The notes below the pieces were generated by a model, which saw only the letters and a list, made by a program, of their open reading frames with translations, did not search any database and was not told the DNA's origin. This document shows positions 43,960 through 52,529 of a stretch of DNA of 64,000 bases, piece by piece. A program made the translations under genes and the position numbers. Each line of letters opens with the position of its first letter. Position 1 is the stretch's first letter. Origin of the DNA: Phenylobacterium sp. (GTDB lineage: Bacteria > Pseudomonadota > Alphaproteobacteria > Caulobacterales > Caulobacteraceae); the NCBI RefSeq assembly GCF_030645195.1, contig NZ_JAUSLW010000183.1:1-64000 (forward strand), given 5' to 3'.

Positions 43960-44081
43960 GCGCCTGCCTCAGCCGATCAGGAATAGCGACCAAGTCAGGA
44001 CCCTAGAGCATTTTCCGATAAGTGTGAAACGGCTATCGGATCGAAAAATGCTCTAACTTTTTGAATTAGAGCCCTTTTTAT
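43960..44081. repeat. Dispersed palindromic repeat array, copy 3, left part (interrupted by IS)
   Basis: gatcaggaatagcgaccaagtcaggaccctagagcattttccgataagtgtgaaacggctatcggatcgaaaaatgctctaac...agagccctttttat. Confidence 0.85.
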
Positions 44082-44148
44082 GGCGATTATATACTTTGCA
44101 AACTCGCTGGGAATCGAGGTAACGCTGCTCTCTGAAAAGGGGACGTAA

Positions 44149-44430
44149 ATGATCGAACCGAGCCAAGTTAAGCTGGCGGCGAACCTGATGGTGACCCAGC
44201 AGATGATCGCCCGGCTGTTTGCGTCCCAATATTTCGAGAAGGGTCTTAAACTCTCGGACTTCGACGCTGTGATACGCCCCAGCTACCTCGGACAAGCGTC
44301 AGTCCAAAGCTTCGAAGGAATGACCCCAGAGTTCGGTGATCTGCTGGCTGCGGAGTTCGAAGACGCTTTGTCCGACCAGCTAGCATTGCAGAGAAGTCTG
44401 CTGGAACGTTTGCTGACGCAAGGCGGATAA
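44149..44430 (+). CDS. Hypothetical protein (93 aa), IS1595 passenger
   Basis: MIEPSQVKLAANLMVTQQMIARLFASQYFEKGLKLSDFDAVIRPSYLG..., ATG with upstream aaaaggggacgta. Confidence 0.65.
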   Translation: MIEPSQVKLAANLMVTQQMIARLFASQYFEKGLKLSDFDAVIRPSYLGQASVQSFEGMTPEFGDLLAAEFEDALSDQLALQRSLLERLLTQGG

Positions 44431-44493
44431 GGGGGTCGTTCATGTTCATGGTATTATAGTACCACGGTATTCAGATACCGCAACCTGTCGCAC

Positions 44494-44643
44494 CTAGAAG
44501 TGCGGGTCGCTCGGAGGCGGCGGTGAACGCTTTGACGCGTAGTCCAGCAGGTTCCGAATCTCCGTCAGGAGATCGGTTATCCGTTTGAGCATCAGATAGC
44601 CGCCGACGACCGCGACGATCAGAACGACCGTTTCGGCGCTCAC
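44494..44643 (-). CDS. Small membrane protein (49 aa), IS1595 passenger
   Basis: VSAETVVLIVAVVGGYLMLKRITDLLTEIRNLLDYASKRSPPPPSDPHF*; GTGA overlap with upstream micro-ORF. Confidence 0.5.
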   Translation of the reverse strand: MSAETVVLIVAVVGGYLMLKRITDLLTEIRNLLDYASKRSPPPPSDPHF

Positions 44644-44792
44644 TTGTCTTGCTCGGCTTCTGGCGCGGAAGGCACCTTCGTCGCGATCTTCTTCAAGGTT
44701 TCCTCGAAGTGCGTGGGGTCTTCGTCGGCCTCTAGCTGGCGAGCGAGGTCGCGGAATTTGTCGGATTGACTCTTTTCGGGCGCGTCAGTCAT
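44640..44792 (-). CDS. Small charged protein (50 aa), IS1595 passenger
   Basis: MTDAPEKSQSDKFRDLARQLEADEDPTHFEETLKKIATKVPSAPEAEQDK*; overlaps next ORF by 4 nt. Confidence 0.55.
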   Translation of the reverse strand: MTDAPEKSQSDKFRDLARQLEADEDPTHFEETLKKIATKVPSAPEAEQDK

Positions 44793-44803
44793 TTGAAACT
44801 CCC

Positions 44804-45667
44804 ATGAGCGACAAACACTACATAATCTATGCGGACGAATCCGAAAAGAAGGGTCGATTTTACTCGAATTTCTTTGGCGGGGTGCTTCTGGCGGCTGAGG
44901 AGCAACAGCGGATTAGTCGAGAGCTAGAAGCCAAAAAGGCCGAGCTTGGCCTTATTCACGAAGTGAAATGGCAATTCGTCGACCAGACGTCCGTCGACCG
45001 GTACATCGAGTTCATAAAGTACTATTTTACATATGTCTCGACGTCGCGGCTAAAGGTACGAATAATGTTCACGCAAAACTTGCGTGTTCCGACAAACTTA
45101 GAGCAACGCCATTTCGACGATCAATACTTTTTACTCTACTATCAGTTTATCAAGCACGCTTTTGGTCTAAAGTATTCCGATCACAACCCCTATCAGGCTG
45201 TAATTGTTCGGGTGCTCCCTGACAAAATACCCGACAGCATAGAGCGCGTTGAGCGCTTCAAGGACTACCTATGCCGCATTCCTAATTCCGGGTTGATGCG
45301 CAGGGACAACATCTACATCCCGCGCGACTTCATCTCTGATGTCGATTCAGAGAAGCACGTAATTATTCAGGGGCTAGACCTGATCCTCGGCTCAATGTCC
45401 TCCAGACTGAACGAGAAGCTGAAAGATATACCGAAGGGCAAGCGTCGACGAGGCAAAAGGACGGTCGCAAAGGAGCGGCTGTATAAGGAGATCAATGCGG
45501 AAATCCGGAAAATCTATCCCAACTTCAATGTTGGGGTCGGCACCGCCTGTCACTACGGTCCGTCAGATCGCTGGACGCATCCCTATCGACACTGGCTCTT
45601 TATGCCGACGAAACACGTTGTGGATCGGCGGTTAGGAAAAAAGGCGGCCCCAGGGCGTCCTACATAA
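44804..45667 (+). CDS. DUF3800-like protein, IS1595 passenger
   Basis: N-terminal HYIIYADESEKKGRFYSNFFGGVLL (Asp-Glu-Ser motif), 287 aa, visibly lower GC than host genes. Confidence 0.78.
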   Translation: MSDKHYIIYADESEKKGRFYSNFFGGVLLAAEEQQRISRELEAKKAELGLIHEVKWQFVDQTSVDRYIEFIKYYFTYVSTSRLKVRIMFTQNLRVPTNLEQRHFDDQYFLLYYQFIKHAFGLKYSDHNPYQAVIVRVLPDKIPDSIERVERFKDYLCRIPNSGLMRRDNIYIPRDFISDVDSEKHVIIQGLDLILGSMSSRLNEKLKDIPKGKRRRGKRTVAKERLYKEINAEIRKIYPNFNVGVGTACHYGPSDRWTHPYRHWLFMPTKHVVDRRLGKKAAPGRPT

Positions 45668-45833
45668 GAGTCCGACGCAAGCGTTGGGCTTCGGTCGCCC
45701 CGGGGACACTTGACAACTTAGTCAATCGGCGCCTGTTCCGCTAGCTTTCTTTTGATCCACGGATGCGGTAGGGTAGCGATTCGTTCCTCATTTGGTCCGC
45801 CAGCGCTGATTCTTCCGCCTTCGTCTAGGCTGC

Positions 45834-46778
45834 TTATTTTTGGAGCCGACTGTTAGCTCCCCCTCGATAGCTCAGGCGCTTGCCGACGACGCCTTGCAGC
45901 GCCGTCATGGCCCGTTGCGTGTCATCCACGCCCAGCGCCGCACGGTTGGAATACCGGAAGTCGAACTCGGCGAGGTAGCGATGCAGGTGTTGCTCGCCGC
46001 AGTGCTGATAGACGCCCTTCATGCCGCGCTTGAAGATGCTGAACGAGCCTTCGACGGTGTTGGTGTGGATGACGGGGGTGGAGTACCGGACGTACTCGCC
46101 CTTGCTGTGGTTGGTGGACTCGTGGGCGGCGAAGGTCTTGCCGACGCGAACGTAGTGGTCGGCCTGATCGGTCATCAGGTGCGCCTCGTGGGCGACGTTG
46201 GCGCTCACCAGGGCGGCGATGGTGGCGGGCTTCATGTCATCCAGAACCATCGAACGCTTGGCGCCGGTGTTGCGCTCTAGGAGGCTCAGAACCTTCATCT
46301 TGTGGCCGATGCCCTGCTTAGGGGTCGCGCCCTTGCGGATGCCGATGAAGGTTTCATCCACCTCGACCACGCCGCCGTCAGAACCGAACGGGGCAAGCTC
46401 ACCCGAGCGCATGGCCTCGCGGATACGATGGCTCAGGAACCACGCCGTCTTGTAGGTCACTTCAAGGGTGCGGTGCAGCTGGTGGGAGGAAACGCCCTTC
46501 TTGCTGGCGGTCATCAGGAAGATCGCTTGCAGCCACTTCGTCAGGGGCAGTTTGGACTCCTCGAAGATCGTGCCCATGCGAACCGTGAACTGGCTCTTGC
46601 ACTGGCCGCACTTCTTGAGGCCGTAGCGGACGCGCTTCTCAGGGTTCGGCTTGATGGCCGTGATGCGCTCGAAACCGCCGCACTTGGGGCACACCGGACC
46701 TTGCGGCCAGATGGTCGCTTCCACCAGGTCGAAGGCGGCTTGTTCATCGTGGAAGTAGGGGCGGGCGAGAACGGACAT
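45834..46778 (-). CDS. IS1595-family (ISXO2-like) DDE transposase
   Basis: Zn ribbon CPKCGG..KKCGQC, GVVEVDETFIGIRKG, LMTDQADHY, HTNTVEGSFSIFKRGMKGVYQH..HLHRYLAEFDFRYSNR. Confidence 0.95.
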   Translation of the reverse strand: MSVLARPYFHDEQAAFDLVEATIWPQGPVCPKCGGFERITAIKPNPEKRVRYGLKKCGQCKSQFTVRMGTIFEESKLPLTKWLQAIFLMTASKKGVSSHQLHRTLEVTYKTAWFLSHRIREAMRSGELAPFGSDGGVVEVDETFIGIRKGATPKQGIGHKMKVLSLLERNTGAKRSMVLDDMKPATIAALVSANVAHEAHLMTDQADHYVRVGKTFAAHESTNHSKGEYVRYSTPVIHTNTVEGSFSIFKRGMKGVYQHCGEQHLHRYLAEFDFRYSNRAALGVDDTQRAMTALQGVVGKRLSYRGGANSRLQK

Positions 46779-47693: not shown

Positions 47694-49040
47694 ATGGTCG
47701 ACGCCGTCACCCCGGCCGCGCCGGAGGCCGAGGCCCGCTCTCCCTTCGACGCCCGCTACCGGGCCTTCGCCCTCGCTGTGCTGCTGGGCGCCTACATCCT
47801 GTCCTTCCTCGACCGGCAGGTGGTGTCGATCCTGGCCGAGCCCATCAAGCGCGACCTGGGCCTGGCCGACTGGCAGCTCGGCATGCTGACGGGTCTGGCC
47901 TTCGCGATCTTCTACACGACCCTGGGCATCCCCATCGCCCGCCTGGCCGAGCGGTTCTCGCGGCCCTGGATCATCGCCGGCTCCATGGCGCTGTGGAGTC
48001 TGTTCACCCTGCTCAGCGGCCGGGCCCAGACCTTCCCGCAGATGCTGGTGGCCCGCATGGGGGTCGGGTTCGGCGAGGCCGGCTGCAACCCCTGCGCCCA
48101 CTCCCTGATCGCCGACTATACGCCCAAGGAAAAGCGCGCCTCGGCGCTGGCCACCTATTCCCTGGGCATCCCCATCGGCACCCTGCTGGGCCTGGTGATG
48201 GGGGGGCTGATCGCCGACGCCTATGGCTGGCGCACCGCCTTCCTGGTGGCCGGGGCGCCGGGCCTGGTCCTGGCCCTGGTGGCCGGGGTCTTCCTGAAGG
48301 AGCCGCGCAAGTTCATGACCGGGGTGGCCGCCAGCCAGGCGCAGGCCGCCCCGCCGCTCGCCGCCGCCCTGCGGGAGCTGGCGACCAAGCCCACCTTCTG
48401 GCTGATGGCGGTGGGCGCCGGCATGATGGCCTTCGTCGGCTACGGCCAGGGCGCCTTCAACGCCGCCTTCTTCATGCGCCTGCACGGCGACCAGCTCACC
48501 GCCCTGGCCGCCCCCTACGGCCTGAAGTCCGCCGGCTATCTCGGCCTGGCGCTTGGCCTGATCGGCGGGATCGCCGGCATGATCGGCACCGTGCTGGGGG
48601 GCTGGTTCGCCGACATCGCCGCCCGCCGCGACGTCCGCGGCTACGCCGTGGTCCCGGCCCTGGCCGCGGTGCTGGCCCTGCCCTCCTACTACTTCATCTA
48701 CACCGTCGACGCCCCGATGACCGCGCTCTGGCTCACCATCATCCCCAGCGTCCTGGGCTCCCTCTGGTACGGCCCGGTCTTCGCCACCGCCCAGAGCGTG
48801 GTGCCCGCCCACACCCGGGCCACCGCCGCGGCCCTGCTGCTGCTGGTGCTCAACCTCATCGGCCTGGGGCTCGGGCCGCTGTTCGTGGGCGCGCTCAGCG
48901 ACGGCCTGGCGACCCTGGGCGGGCTCGGCGAATCCGAGGGCCTGCGCTGGTCTCTGATCCTCACCTCGCTGTTCGGCCTGCTGGGCGCGGCCATCTTCTG
49001 GATGGCCCGCAAGACCATGGTGCGCGACCTGGTGAGCTGA
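47694..49040 (+). CDS. MFS transporter, spinster-like
   Basis: AYILSFLDRQVVSILAEPIKRDLGLADWQLGMLTGLAFAIFYTTLGIPIARLAE. Confidence 0.93.
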   Translation: MVDAVTPAAPEAEARSPFDARYRAFALAVLLGAYILSFLDRQVVSILAEPIKRDLGLADWQLGMLTGLAFAIFYTTLGIPIARLAERFSRPWIIAGSMALWSLFTLLSGRAQTFPQMLVARMGVGFGEAGCNPCAHSLIADYTPKEKRASALATYSLGIPIGTLLGLVMGGLIADAYGWRTAFLVAGAPGLVLALVAGVFLKEPRKFMTGVAASQAQAAPPLAAALRELATKPTFWLMAVGAGMMAFVGYGQGAFNAAFFMRLHGDQLTALAAPYGLKSAGYLGLALGLIGGIAGMIGTVLGGWFADIAARRDVRGYAVVPALAAVLALPSYYFIYTVDAPMTALWLTIIPSVLGSLWYGPVFATAQSVVPAHTRATAAALLLLVLNLIGLGLGPLFVGALSDGLATLGGLGESEGLRWSLILTSLFGLLGAAIFWMARKTMVRDLVS

Positions 49041-49147: not shown

Positions 49148-51568
49148 ATGCCGATCTCTTACCTCTCGGCCGCGCAGATCTCCGCCCTGTCGGTGACCAC
49201 GCTCGCGCCGCTGTCGACCACCAAGATGGCCCAGCTCACCTCGACCCAGGTGGGCGCCATCAGCGCGACCGGCATCGAGGCCCTGGGCGTCACCCAGGTG
49301 GCGGCCCTGTCGGCGACCCAGGTCAAGGGCCTGAAGGCCACCCAGATCGCCCACTTCGCCGCCTCGGTGGTGTTCGACACCGCCCAGCTCGTGGCCATGA
49401 GCGCCTCCCAGGTGGGCGGCTTCAGCACCACCCAGCTCGCGGCCCTGGACACCAGGATCGCCGCCCTGGCCGGAACCCAGCTGGCCGGGCTGTCGGCCAC
49501 CGGCCTGTCGACCCTGTCGGCCACCCAGATCAGCGCGCTCAACGCCACCCAGATCAAGGGACTCACCACCACCCAGATCAAGGGGCTCAGCACCGCCGAC
49601 ATCGACGAGTTCGACCAGACCCAGCTCGGCGCCTTCACCGCCACCCAGCTCGGCGTCTTTTCCACCACCCACCTGGCCCAGCTGGACGCCACCGAGGTGG
49701 CCTCCCTCTCCACCACCCAGGTCAAGGGGCTCAACCCGCTGCAGCTGCGGGACATCGACGCCACCACCATCGGCCGGTTCACGGCGACCCAGATCGGCGC
49801 CCTGTCGGCCACCCAGATCGGCGCGGTCACCGCCACCAACCTCGCGGCCCTCAGCGGCGGGGCCATCTCGGCCCTGTCGGCCACCCAGGTCGCCGGCCTC
49901 TCGGTCACGGCGCTCGGCGCCCTGGACACCACCCAGGTCTCCTCGCTCACCACCACCCAGGTGGCGGGCCTGACCACCACCCAGGTCAAGAGCCTGGCGG
50001 CCGACGACTTCGACAAGTTCACCTCGGGCCAGATCGCCGCCTTCAGCGCCGCCCAGTTGGCCTCGCTCTCGGCGACCAATCTCGCCTCCCTGGACCAGAC
50101 CGAGATCCAGAGCCTGACCACCACCCAGTCGGCCGGCTTCACCGCCACCCAGATGGGCGGGCTGTCGGCCACCGACTTCGCCGAGTTCAGCGGCGTCCAG
50201 GTCGCCGCCCTCACCCCGGCCCAACTCGGCGGCCTGTCGGTCACCAACCTGACCTCGCTGTCGGCCACCCAGTTCGCGGCGCTCACCCCCACCCTGGTGA
50301 AGGGGCTCAGCGCCACCCAGCTCGGCGGCCTGTCCACCACCGACTTCGCCCGGTTCAGCACCACCCAGATCGTCAGCCTGACGGCGCCCCAGATCGGGTC
50401 GCTTTCGGCCACCAATGTCGCCGGCCTCAACGCCACGGTGATCCAGCAACTCAGCACCACCCAGCTCCAGGGCCTCACCGCCTTCCAGGTGCGCAGCCTC
50501 GGCGCGGGCGACGTGCAGGAGTTCACCGCCACCCAGATCGCGGCCCTGACCCCGGCCCAGTTCGGCTCCTTCTCCGCCACCGCCCTGCCGGCCCTGTTCG
50601 ACACCCAGTTCGCGGCGCTCAGCAGCGCCCAGATCGGCGCGATGTCGGCCACCGGCCTGGCGGCCCTCAACGACACCCAGCTCGGCTGGCTCTCGGCGAC
50701 CCAGCTCAAGGGGGTCAGCGCCACGGCGCTCGGCGGCCTGTCGGCCACCGACTTCGGCCGCTTCAGCGAGACCCAGATCGACAGCCTGACGGGCGCCCAG
50801 CTCGGCGGCCTGTCGGCGACCAACCTCGGCTCGCTCACCCAGACCCAGGTGGCCGACCTCACCACCACCCAGGTCCAGGGCCTGACGGCGACCCAGCTCT
50901 CGGGGCTCTCGGCCACCGACATCGGCGAGTTCAACTTCGTGCAGTTGCGGGCCATGTCGGCGGGGCAGATCAACGCCTTCTCCACCGAGGCCGTGGCGTC
51001 CCTGACATCGCTGCAGGTCTCGGCCCTGTCCTCCAGCCAGATGAGCGGCCTGTCGGCCACCAACCTCTCGGCCCTGACCTCGACCCAGGTCGCGGGCCTG
51101 ACCACCACCCAGGTCCAGGGCATCAGCATCAACAATGTGCGCAGCCTCGGCGCCACGGACTTCGCCGAACTGACGGCCACCCAGCTGACCTCGCTCACCG
51201 CCGGCCAGGTGGGGGCGCTCTCCACCACCAACCTGTTCGGGCTCTCCAGCACCGCGTTCGGATCCCTGGGCGCAACCCAGATCGCCGGCCTCAGCGCCAG
51301 CCAGCTGACGGCCATCGCGCCCACCCAGTTCGACGCCTTCACCACCACCCAGATCGCGGCCCTGCCCGCCGCCCAGATCGGCGCCCTGTCCACCACGGTG
51401 ATCGCGGCGCTGGCCACCACCCAGGTGACGGCCTTCACCCCGACCCAGATCCCGCGGCTGAGCGTCACCCAGGTGCGCCAGCTCTCGGCCACCAATGTCG
51501 CGGCCATGACCCCGGCCCAGGTGAACGCCTTCACGGCGATCCAAATCCAGAATCTGCCCCCGGCCTGA
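49148..51568 (+). CDS. Octapeptide-repeat protein (806 aa, consensus [LF]-[ST]-[AT]-T-Q-[ILV]-x-x)
   Basis: About 100 tandem 8-residue units e.g. LSATQISA LNATQIKG LTTTQIKG LSTADIDE FDQTQLGA FTATQLGV; no recognisable catalytic domain. Confidence 0.85.
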   Translation: MPISYLSAAQISALSVTTLAPLSTTKMAQLTSTQVGAISATGIEALGVTQVAALSATQVKGLKATQIAHFAASVVFDTAQLVAMSASQVGGFSTTQLAALDTRIAALAGTQLAGLSATGLSTLSATQISALNATQIKGLTTTQIKGLSTADIDEFDQTQLGAFTATQLGVFSTTHLAQLDATEVASLSTTQVKGLNPLQLRDIDATTIGRFTATQIGALSATQIGAVTATNLAALSGGAISALSATQVAGLSVTALGALDTTQVSSLTTTQVAGLTTTQVKSLAADDFDKFTSGQIAAFSAAQLASLSATNLASLDQTEIQSLTTTQSAGFTATQMGGLSATDFAEFSGVQVAALTPAQLGGLSVTNLTSLSATQFAALTPTLVKGLSATQLGGLSTTDFARFSTTQIVSLTAPQIGSLSATNVAGLNATVIQQLSTTQLQGLTAFQVRSLGAGDVQEFTATQIAALTPAQFGSFSATALPALFDTQFAALSSAQIGAMSATGLAALNDTQLGWLSATQLKGVSATALGGLSATDFGRFSETQIDSLTGAQLGGLSATNLGSLTQTQVADLTTTQVQGLTATQLSGLSATDIGEFNFVQLRAMSAGQINAFSTEAVASLTSLQVSALSSSQMSGLSATNLSALTSTQVAGLTTTQVQGISINNVRSLGATDFAELTATQLTSLTAGQVGALSTTNLFGLSSTAFGSLGATQIAGLSASQLTAIAPTQFDAFTTTQIAALPAAQIGALSTTVIAALATTQVTAFTPTQIPRLSVTQVRQLSATNVAAMTPAQVNAFTAIQIQNLPPA

Positions 51569-51626: not shown

Positions 51627-52529
51627 ATGAGCGGCCGCATCGAGGCGATCGAATACACCGACGCCGTCTGCTCCACCGCCTGGGGCGCCGAGCCGTTGCT
51701 GCGCCGGCTGGACTGGCGCCACGGCCACCATCTCACCTGGCGCAAGGTCATGGGCGGCCTGGTGGGAAATGCGGCCGCCGGCAAGGACGCCTGGGACCGG
51801 GTCGGCGCCGCGGTTCCCATGCGGGCCTACTGGAAGCGGGTCTGGGCGCTCACCGGCATGCCCTATCCCAACCCCATGCACCTGATGCTGCAGTCCACCG
51901 ATCCCCTGGGCCAGGCGGTCAAGGCCGCCGAGCTGCAGGGCCAGGAGGTCGCCCACGCCGTGCTGCGCCGCTTCCGCGAGCAGATCTTCATCTTCGGCCT
52001 GGGCCCCCAGACCCCCGACGAGTTCGACGCCGCCACCCAGGGCGTCCGCGGCCTCGACCACCGCCGCTGGCGGGCCGACCAGGCCTCCGAAGCCGTCGCC
52101 GCCGCCTACCGCGCCGACTGGGAGGAGACCCGCGCCCCCAACGACCATGTGCGCAATCTCAAGCACGACAGCCCGATGAACGGCGAGCTCAAGCACTCCG
52201 AGGGTCACGACCGCTACGCCCTGCCCACCGTCATCTTCCGTGGCCCCAATGGCGATCACACCGTCGCCGGCTGGGTCGGCTACGAGGAATATGTCGCCGG
52301 CCTCGAGGCCGCCCTGCCCGGCGCCGCCGCCGATCCGCGCCCCGACCCCACCCCGGAACAGGCCTTCGACCGCTGGCCGGTGCTGACCGCCAAGGAGCTA
52401 GCCTTCCTGTGCGGCGAGCCTGCCCAGCCCCCCGCCGACGTCGTCCCCTACGACTGGGGCGACGGCCTGGTCTATTTCGCCCCCGCCGAGGCCCGCGCCC
52501 GGGGTCTGGCGGAGTCCGCCCCGGCCTAG
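51627..52529 (+). CDS. DsbA-family/thioredoxin-fold-like protein
   Basis: RIEAIEYTDAVCSTAWGAEPLLRRL...LRRFREQIFIFG..ALPTVIFRGPNGDHTVAGWVGYEEY. Confidence 0.72.
   Translation: MSGRIEAIEYTDAVCSTAWGAEPLLRRLDWRHGHHLTWRKVMGGLVGNAAAGKDAWDRVGAAVPMRAYWKRVWALTGMPYPNPMHLMLQSTDPLGQAVKAAELQGQEVAHAVLRRFREQIFIFGLGPQTPDEFDAATQGVRGLDHRRWRADQASEAVAAAYRADWEETRAPNDHVRNLKHDSPMNGELKHSEGHDRYALPTVIFRGPNGDHTVAGWVGYEEYVAGLEAALPGAAADPRPDPTPEQAFDRWPVLTAKELAFLCGEPAQPPADVVPYDWGDGLVYFAPAEARARGLAESAPA

Follow-up and report, generated by a model that had tools for sequence, protein, structure and literature searches.

An 806-residue octad-repeat protein of Phenylobacterium belongs to the ALTTAQ family and follows a single super-period of about 3.43 octads

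A reading frame that encodes little but octapeptides raises the question of what kind of protein it specifies, how such a chain may fold and what it may do for the cell. One such frame lies in a 64,000-nucleotide stretch of Phenylobacterium sp. DNA (assembly GCF_030645195.1, contig NZ_JAUSLW010000183.1, positions 1 to 64,000), referred to here as the window, and a preliminary description had taken its product for an octad solenoid or fibre of unknown function. The octad solenoid stands, but the family is already in Pfam: the window protein matches PF20080, the ALTTAQ repeat, with E=1.9e-82 over 26 stretches (271 bits against a cut-off of 26.4). Judged by its sequence, the protein is a member of this known, functionally uncharacterised repeat family, and a literature search found no paper naming the ALTTAQ repeat, PF20080 or the octad motif. 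Its distribution is patchy. With the whole window protein as query, arrays were recovered in 10 of 60 related genomes, while the family profile at strict E-values matched 6/385 genomes of the class and 16/399 of the phylum. Plasmids contribute 58 matching records, including those of Rhizobium, Shinella, Cereibacter and Pseudomonas, and among the public names of these relatives are “ICE nucleation protein,” “hypothetical protein” and “heme utilization protein.” A phage origin was rejected, as there was no ALTTAQ match in 50,697 phage records. A leucine-rich repeat reading, prompted by LRR_EndoS in Pfam and LRR receptors in the PDB, was likewise rejected, the matches being weak and taken as an effect of leucine spacing. 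RTX families were absent from the Pfam matches at E<=1, and the glycine-aspartate nonapeptide calcium-binding repeat by which they are recognised is lacking in the window protein. Elsewhere, 17 octads lie within a protein with bacterial cadherin-like domains (PF17803; L064, 7559-10987, in G200), and an ORF of 3372 aa (L118, G612:C37), which combines about 26 octads with matches to SH3_3 and, weakly, to an ADP-ribosyltransferase-type domain, lies near genes resembling type III secretion genes. A long array in G011 (L069) is spread over several overlapping frames, a pattern suggestive of frameshifts, either genuine or introduced during assembly.

The window gene starts with ATG (Table 1), and we attribute the long antisense ORFs over it to the repetition of its codons. 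A register-aware parse resolves 98 octads with two breaks, in line with the roughly 100 units and two small N-terminal breaks of the preliminary description. Across the 87 octads in register the column consensus is L(62/87)-S/T-A/T-T(62/87)-Q(55/87)-L/I/V-x-x. Serine and threonine make up 26.6% of the protein and cysteine is absent. As described before, no signal peptide is evident. The C-terminal block matches the C-termini of five other array proteins (L058, L074, L126, L127, L128) better than any octads inside those proteins, and is a candidate cap or C-terminal export signal.

Table 1. Features of the window gene and its two neighbours (window coordinates).
Feature	Position	Strand	Basis or remark
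Upstream MFS transporter, named by eye	47694..49040	+	Synteny in L011-L013, lost in remoter species
ALTTAQ-repeat protein (806 aa) of the short stand-alone class	49148..51568	+	ORF, PF20080, orthologues L011-L013
N-terminal block MPISYLSAAQIS..., octads 1-8	49148..49354	+	Conserved at the N-terminus of long paralogues linked to GT41
Register break 1, residues 70-75	49355..49372	+	Register-aware parse
Register break 2, residues 100-106	49445..49465	+	One extra residue here in orthologues
87 octads in unbroken register, residues 107-802	49466..51553	+	Consensus L-S-A-T-Q-[ILV]-x-x, period 3.42 octads
D-marked octad region	49586..51169	+	Octads share a single phase of the 3.43-octad period
C-terminal block ...LSATNVAAMTPAQVNAFTAIQIQNLPPA	51428..51565	+	Resembles C-termini of several GT41-linked paralogues more than their internal octads
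Downstream DsbA/isomerase-like gene, named by eye	51627..52529	+	Syntenic only in L013

Within the array, octads marked by aspartate begin at residues 147, 283, 339, 395, 451, 531, 587 and 667. They occupy octads 17, 34, 41, 48, 55, 65, 72 and 82 and, together with a weak instance at octad 24, reproduce exactly the previously described spacing of 7, 10, 7, 7, 7, 10, 7 and 10 octads. The asparagine-marked octads that usually follow three octads later were also found, at octads 27, 37, 44, 51, 68 and 85. This rhythm had been described as a 7-/10-octad super-repeat; the higher-order rhythm is real, but it reflects a single period and not two lengths. Fourier power over octad order is maximal at 3.42 octads (27.4 residues), a peak reached by 0/400 octad shuffles, with the same outcome when column 5 is left out. 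The D-octads alone give a period of 3.43 octads with a resultant of 0.97, matched by 1/2000 random sets, and distances of 7, 10, 17, 24 and 31 octads correspond to 2, 3, 5, 7 and 9 such periods. The alternation of 7 and 10 expresses a single quasi-period, 3.43 octads long. With all D- and N-octads taken out, the strongest peak shifts to 7.98 octads, indicating that they supply much of the 3.43 signal; the power at 3.43 is then 8.89, against a largest null maximum of 8.81. A peak at 3.40-3.46 octads is seen in nearly all Phenylobacterium arrays and also in most arrays with a clear period from other genera, families and classes. The identity between octads is highest at a lag of 24 in two genomes (G234, G329) and at a lag of 31 in two others (G261, G027), as well as in an array on another contig of the same genome (C182). 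Seven long arrays have no clear 3.43 peak (L060, L062, L110, L112, L114, L120, L121). Giant arrays with open frames of 3400-5300 aa and alternating octads LADTQLDG / LTSLQLTA also occur (L112, L113, L114, L121, L129); several of these are without a clear 3.43 period and may form a sub-family with a two-octad unit.

Three Phenylobacterium MAGs (L011-L013) carry equally long orthologues (806-807 aa) that share 71-73% identity with the window protein, are free of frameshifts and align with it with one-residue gaps only. Lengths among the short-class orthologues are 806, 806, 752, 614, 558 and 477 aa. Measured against the window protein and taking 3.43 octads to the turn, the net changes of 54, 192, 248 and 329 aa amount to 1.97, 7.00, 9.04 and 11.99 turns. 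The differences among the orthologues (about 7, 24, 31 and 41 octads) lie near whole turns, where about 20% of octad counts from 1 to 44 would fall equally near. Clean single indels of 7, 17 and 7 octads are found in the pairwise alignments, and the remaining pairs have several smaller gaps that sum to a near-whole number of turns. Positions 1 (0.84) and 5 (0.90) of the octad are the most conserved among orthologues, and the D residues are kept in 24/24 comparisons. The dN/dS between the window gene and its orthologues is ~0.5-0.6, which, together with the full-length orthologues at 71-73% identity, shows the gene to be real. Selective constraint is present but weak, the MFS-like neighbour having a dN/dS of ~0.26-0.28. 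Could the gene then be a drifting remnant, a short paralogue of a long array that has lost its partners, is weakly constrained and has no important function? The identity of 71-73%, against the 87% at which all three closest MAGs keep the adjacent MFS protein, a dN some 2.5 times the MFS value while dS is similar, and the length range of 477 to 806 aa are all consistent with such decay. However, the frame is open in all orthologues, the net length changes are near whole turns, and both the D-octads and the terminal blocks are conserved, so that we consider a remnant quite improbable.

The structure prediction suggested in the preliminary description does yield a solenoid. An AlphaFold2 model of the window protein, computed with three orthologues, has a pLDDT of 89.9 and a pTM of 0.54, with ~90 helices of mostly 4-6 residues, and a 32-octad fragment reaches a pLDDT of 91.6 and a pTM of 0.83. 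The models of the window protein contain no strands, and the helices assigned by DSSP mostly begin at octad position 3. The predicted fold is an all-α solenoid with one single-turn mini-helix per octad. Helix starts are commonly framed by a hydrophobic staple, an N-cap and an N3 capping-box partner, and by these rules L1 and I/L/V6 would form the staple, S/T2 the N-cap, which fits helices starting at position 3, and Q5 the N3 partner. The earlier analogy with the octad solenoids of ice-nucleation proteins is not supported by this prediction. A β-solenoid of the ice-nucleation or ice-binding type could claim the octad periodicity and the GenBank name “ICE nucleation protein” given to relatives on Cereibacter plasmids, but the model is helical at high confidence and the ice-nucleation family (PF00818 type) is absent from the Pfam matches at E<=1; the β-solenoid was rejected and appears hardly credible. 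Our reading of the window protein is a “helix of helices” that would complete a turn about every 3.4 octads, a value predicted from the sequence. Each octad would contribute one mini-helix, and the succession of mini-helices would coil into a superhelix whose turn takes up ~3.43 octads (27.4 residues). Since residues spaced 7 or 10 octads apart would then align, the D and N residues may form stripes along one face, and the array would lengthen and shorten by whole turns.

The immediate neighbourhood offers few hints as to what such a solenoid does. The MFS, DsbA-like and SDR neighbours were rejected as operon partners, as synteny is confined to the closest species, and the MFS and DsbA-like genes probably do not belong to the system. 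In remoter species the short-class gene is flanked by TerC- and PriA-like genes instead. No GT41 (O-GlcNAc-transferase-type) or type I secretion system (T1SS) gene was found within several kb of the window gene, of its orthologues L011-L013 or of L068, L070, L072 and L073, and adjacent T1SS genes of their own, by which a type I secreted protein would be recognised, are lacking for the window gene and its orthologues. Upstream, positions 44001-46000 of the window form a low-GC island (0.53 vs ~0.69), beside which an ORF on the minus strand (45834-46778) resembles, by eye, an IS1595/ISXO2-type transposase.

Long relatives of the window protein have more telling company. A uniform HMM search of 54 ALTTAQ loci, which are phylogenetically dependent, and include four (L125-L128) that entered the set after their GT41 positions were known as well as two stretches of one locus (L110/L111) whose GT41 distance was derived from ORF ends, gave a strong GT41 match within 6.4 kb in 27/54 and within 300 bp in 20/54. 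Because most genomes have few GT41 genes, such neighbourhoods would seldom arise by chance. On plasmids, nine ORFs adjoining arrays all match PF13844, under the public names “tetratricopeptide repeat protein,” “glycosyl transferase,” “hypothetical protein” and O-GlcNAc transferase; a tenth ORF, for a glycosyltransferase at a greater distance from the array in Shinella, gave no PF13844 match. The genome of the window carries ALTTAQ arrays on three further contigs (C121, C182, C112), of which C182 may be the front part of the array on C121 or C112, since it runs off a contig end and the other two begin at one. On both C121 and C112 the long array is followed by a GT41 gene with TPRs, a FkbM-type methyltransferase protein, a sugar epimerase and flagellins, so that one genome holds two similar clusters (L057, L058). 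As for secretion, the T1SS adaptor HlyD lies within 5 kb in 11 ALTTAQ loci, the accompanying ABC proteins being HlyB-like or PrtD-like, and independent annotation places a T1SS beside arrays in Cereibacter, Pseudoroseomonas and on two Pseudomonas plasmids. Plasmid pA of Cereibacter sphaeroides 2.4.1, for instance, has OGT, HlyD and ABC genes at the locus of its “ICE nucleation protein.” The genome of the window encodes a PrtD-type T1SS ABC protein on C165, where, by eye, a HlyD-like gene and a possible substrate of 707 aa adjoin it. Neither GT41 nor T1SS lies near many of the remaining arrays, chiefly those of f198, Shinella, Thioclava and Roseateles.

These linkages bear on two further explanations. 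Alpha-solenoids of the HEAT/ARM type frequently serve as intracellular scaffolds, and an ALTTAQ array might likewise be a cytoplasmic binding platform for, or regulator of, GT41 and other proteins, never to be exported. This would agree with the solitary position of the window gene, with the lack of a visible signal peptide and with the half of the loci in which T1SS or GT41 is missing nearby; yet T1SS genes adjoin arrays in unrelated genera and one array region lies inside the cadherin-type protein of L064, which makes a cytoplasmic scaffold unlikely. Alternatively, GT41 might glycosylate flagellins, with the ALTTAQ proteins, for example, exported or anchored together with flagella. Flagellin genes do lie within 7 kb of four arrays (L057, L058, L126, L148), a flagellar gene set adjoins the Rhodovastum array, and FlmG is known to glycosylate flagellins in Caulobacter (PMC7591256). 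Most of the GT41-ALTTAQ loci examined, however, have no flagellin nearby, and several (Cereibacter, Pseudomonas, Niveispirillum) have a T1SS instead, so that a function tied to the flagellum is improbable. Flagellar genes were also observed near an ALTTAQ-GT41 pair on plasmids of Rhodovastum (L147) and Pseudorhizobium (L148).

The explanation that we favour, at roughly even chances, is that ALTTAQ α-solenoids are glycosylated by GT41 and exported by type I secretion to the cell surface, and that the window gene, as a short paralogue standing alone, is served by the same route in trans. The long, Ser/Thr-rich relatives would probably receive their O-glycans in the cytoplasm from the GT41 enzyme encoded next to them and, once exported through the T1SS, could act as surface fibres or adhesins. 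For the window protein, whose function is inferred by homology, the shared N- and C-terminal blocks, and the fact that all seven genomes with a short-class gene also carry a long array, suggest that it probably enters the same pathway in trans, via the two GT41 enzymes beside the long arrays of its own genome. The earlier proposal of a cytoplasmic or non-classically exported fibre is thus retained as regards the solenoid, but a purely cytoplasmic fate is not what the context of the relatives suggests. More broadly, ALTTAQ proteins may possibly, with odds somewhat on the low side of even, be widespread bacterial surface glycoproteins, namely screw-shaped α-solenoids, built from single-turn helices with ~3.43 octads per turn, that are dedicated GT41 substrates and leave the cell by type I export. 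If so, many “orphan” bacterial O-GlcNAc-transferase-like enzymes would gain a substrate, made directly testable by the linkage of GT41 to the arrays. The solenoid would gain a mucin-like role, and the 3.43-octad period and whole-turn indels would predict from sequence the turn geometry of an unusual α-solenoid.

Among solved structures, the only clear sequence relative is “HeliScrew4” (PDB 9zem), a short chain of 120 aa with octads of the type LTPEQIAA, of which 99 residues align (E=9e-12). It is probably engineered, judging by its name; no HeliScrew paper was found in the literature search, and 9zem is absent among the Foldseek matches listed for the window fragment. TAL-effector matches of an octad consensus were set aside, as that query was HeliScrew4-like and not the window protein. 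The top Foldseek matches of the fragment model are to mesothelin (PDB 8cx3, 7ued), likewise a solenoid of many short helices, right-handed with 24 helices in nine layers (PMC10035497). The probability reaches 1.00, but the TM-score of 0.37-0.38, with an rmsd of about 10 angstrom and 11-14% identity, stays below the usual 0.5 for a global fold shared with ARM/HEAT or mesothelin-like solenoids, and mesothelin has irregular repeats and disulphides, unlike the window protein.

With respect to the proposed modification, HMW1A/HMW1C-type systems likewise pair a large exoprotein with a cytoplasmic GT41-family enzyme (PMC3012730, PMC3983070). HMW1 is N-glycosylated and uses two-partner secretion, whereas the exporter linked to ALTTAQ arrays, where there is one, is of type I and the predicted fold is α-helical. 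FlmG of Caulobacter crescentus, a related bacterium, is a TPR-GT-B enzyme that glycosylates flagellins (PMC7591256); it combines TPRs with GT-B as here, and flagellin is sometimes found near the ALTTAQ-GT41 pair as well, but the substrate of FlmG is flagellin and not a repeat solenoid. Compared with PF20080 itself, the octad of the window protein is identical in type. The repeat family is known; the quantitative account of its super-period is new, as are the whole-turn indels and the GT41/T1SS linkage, and the link of the long members to GT41 and type I secretion is testable.
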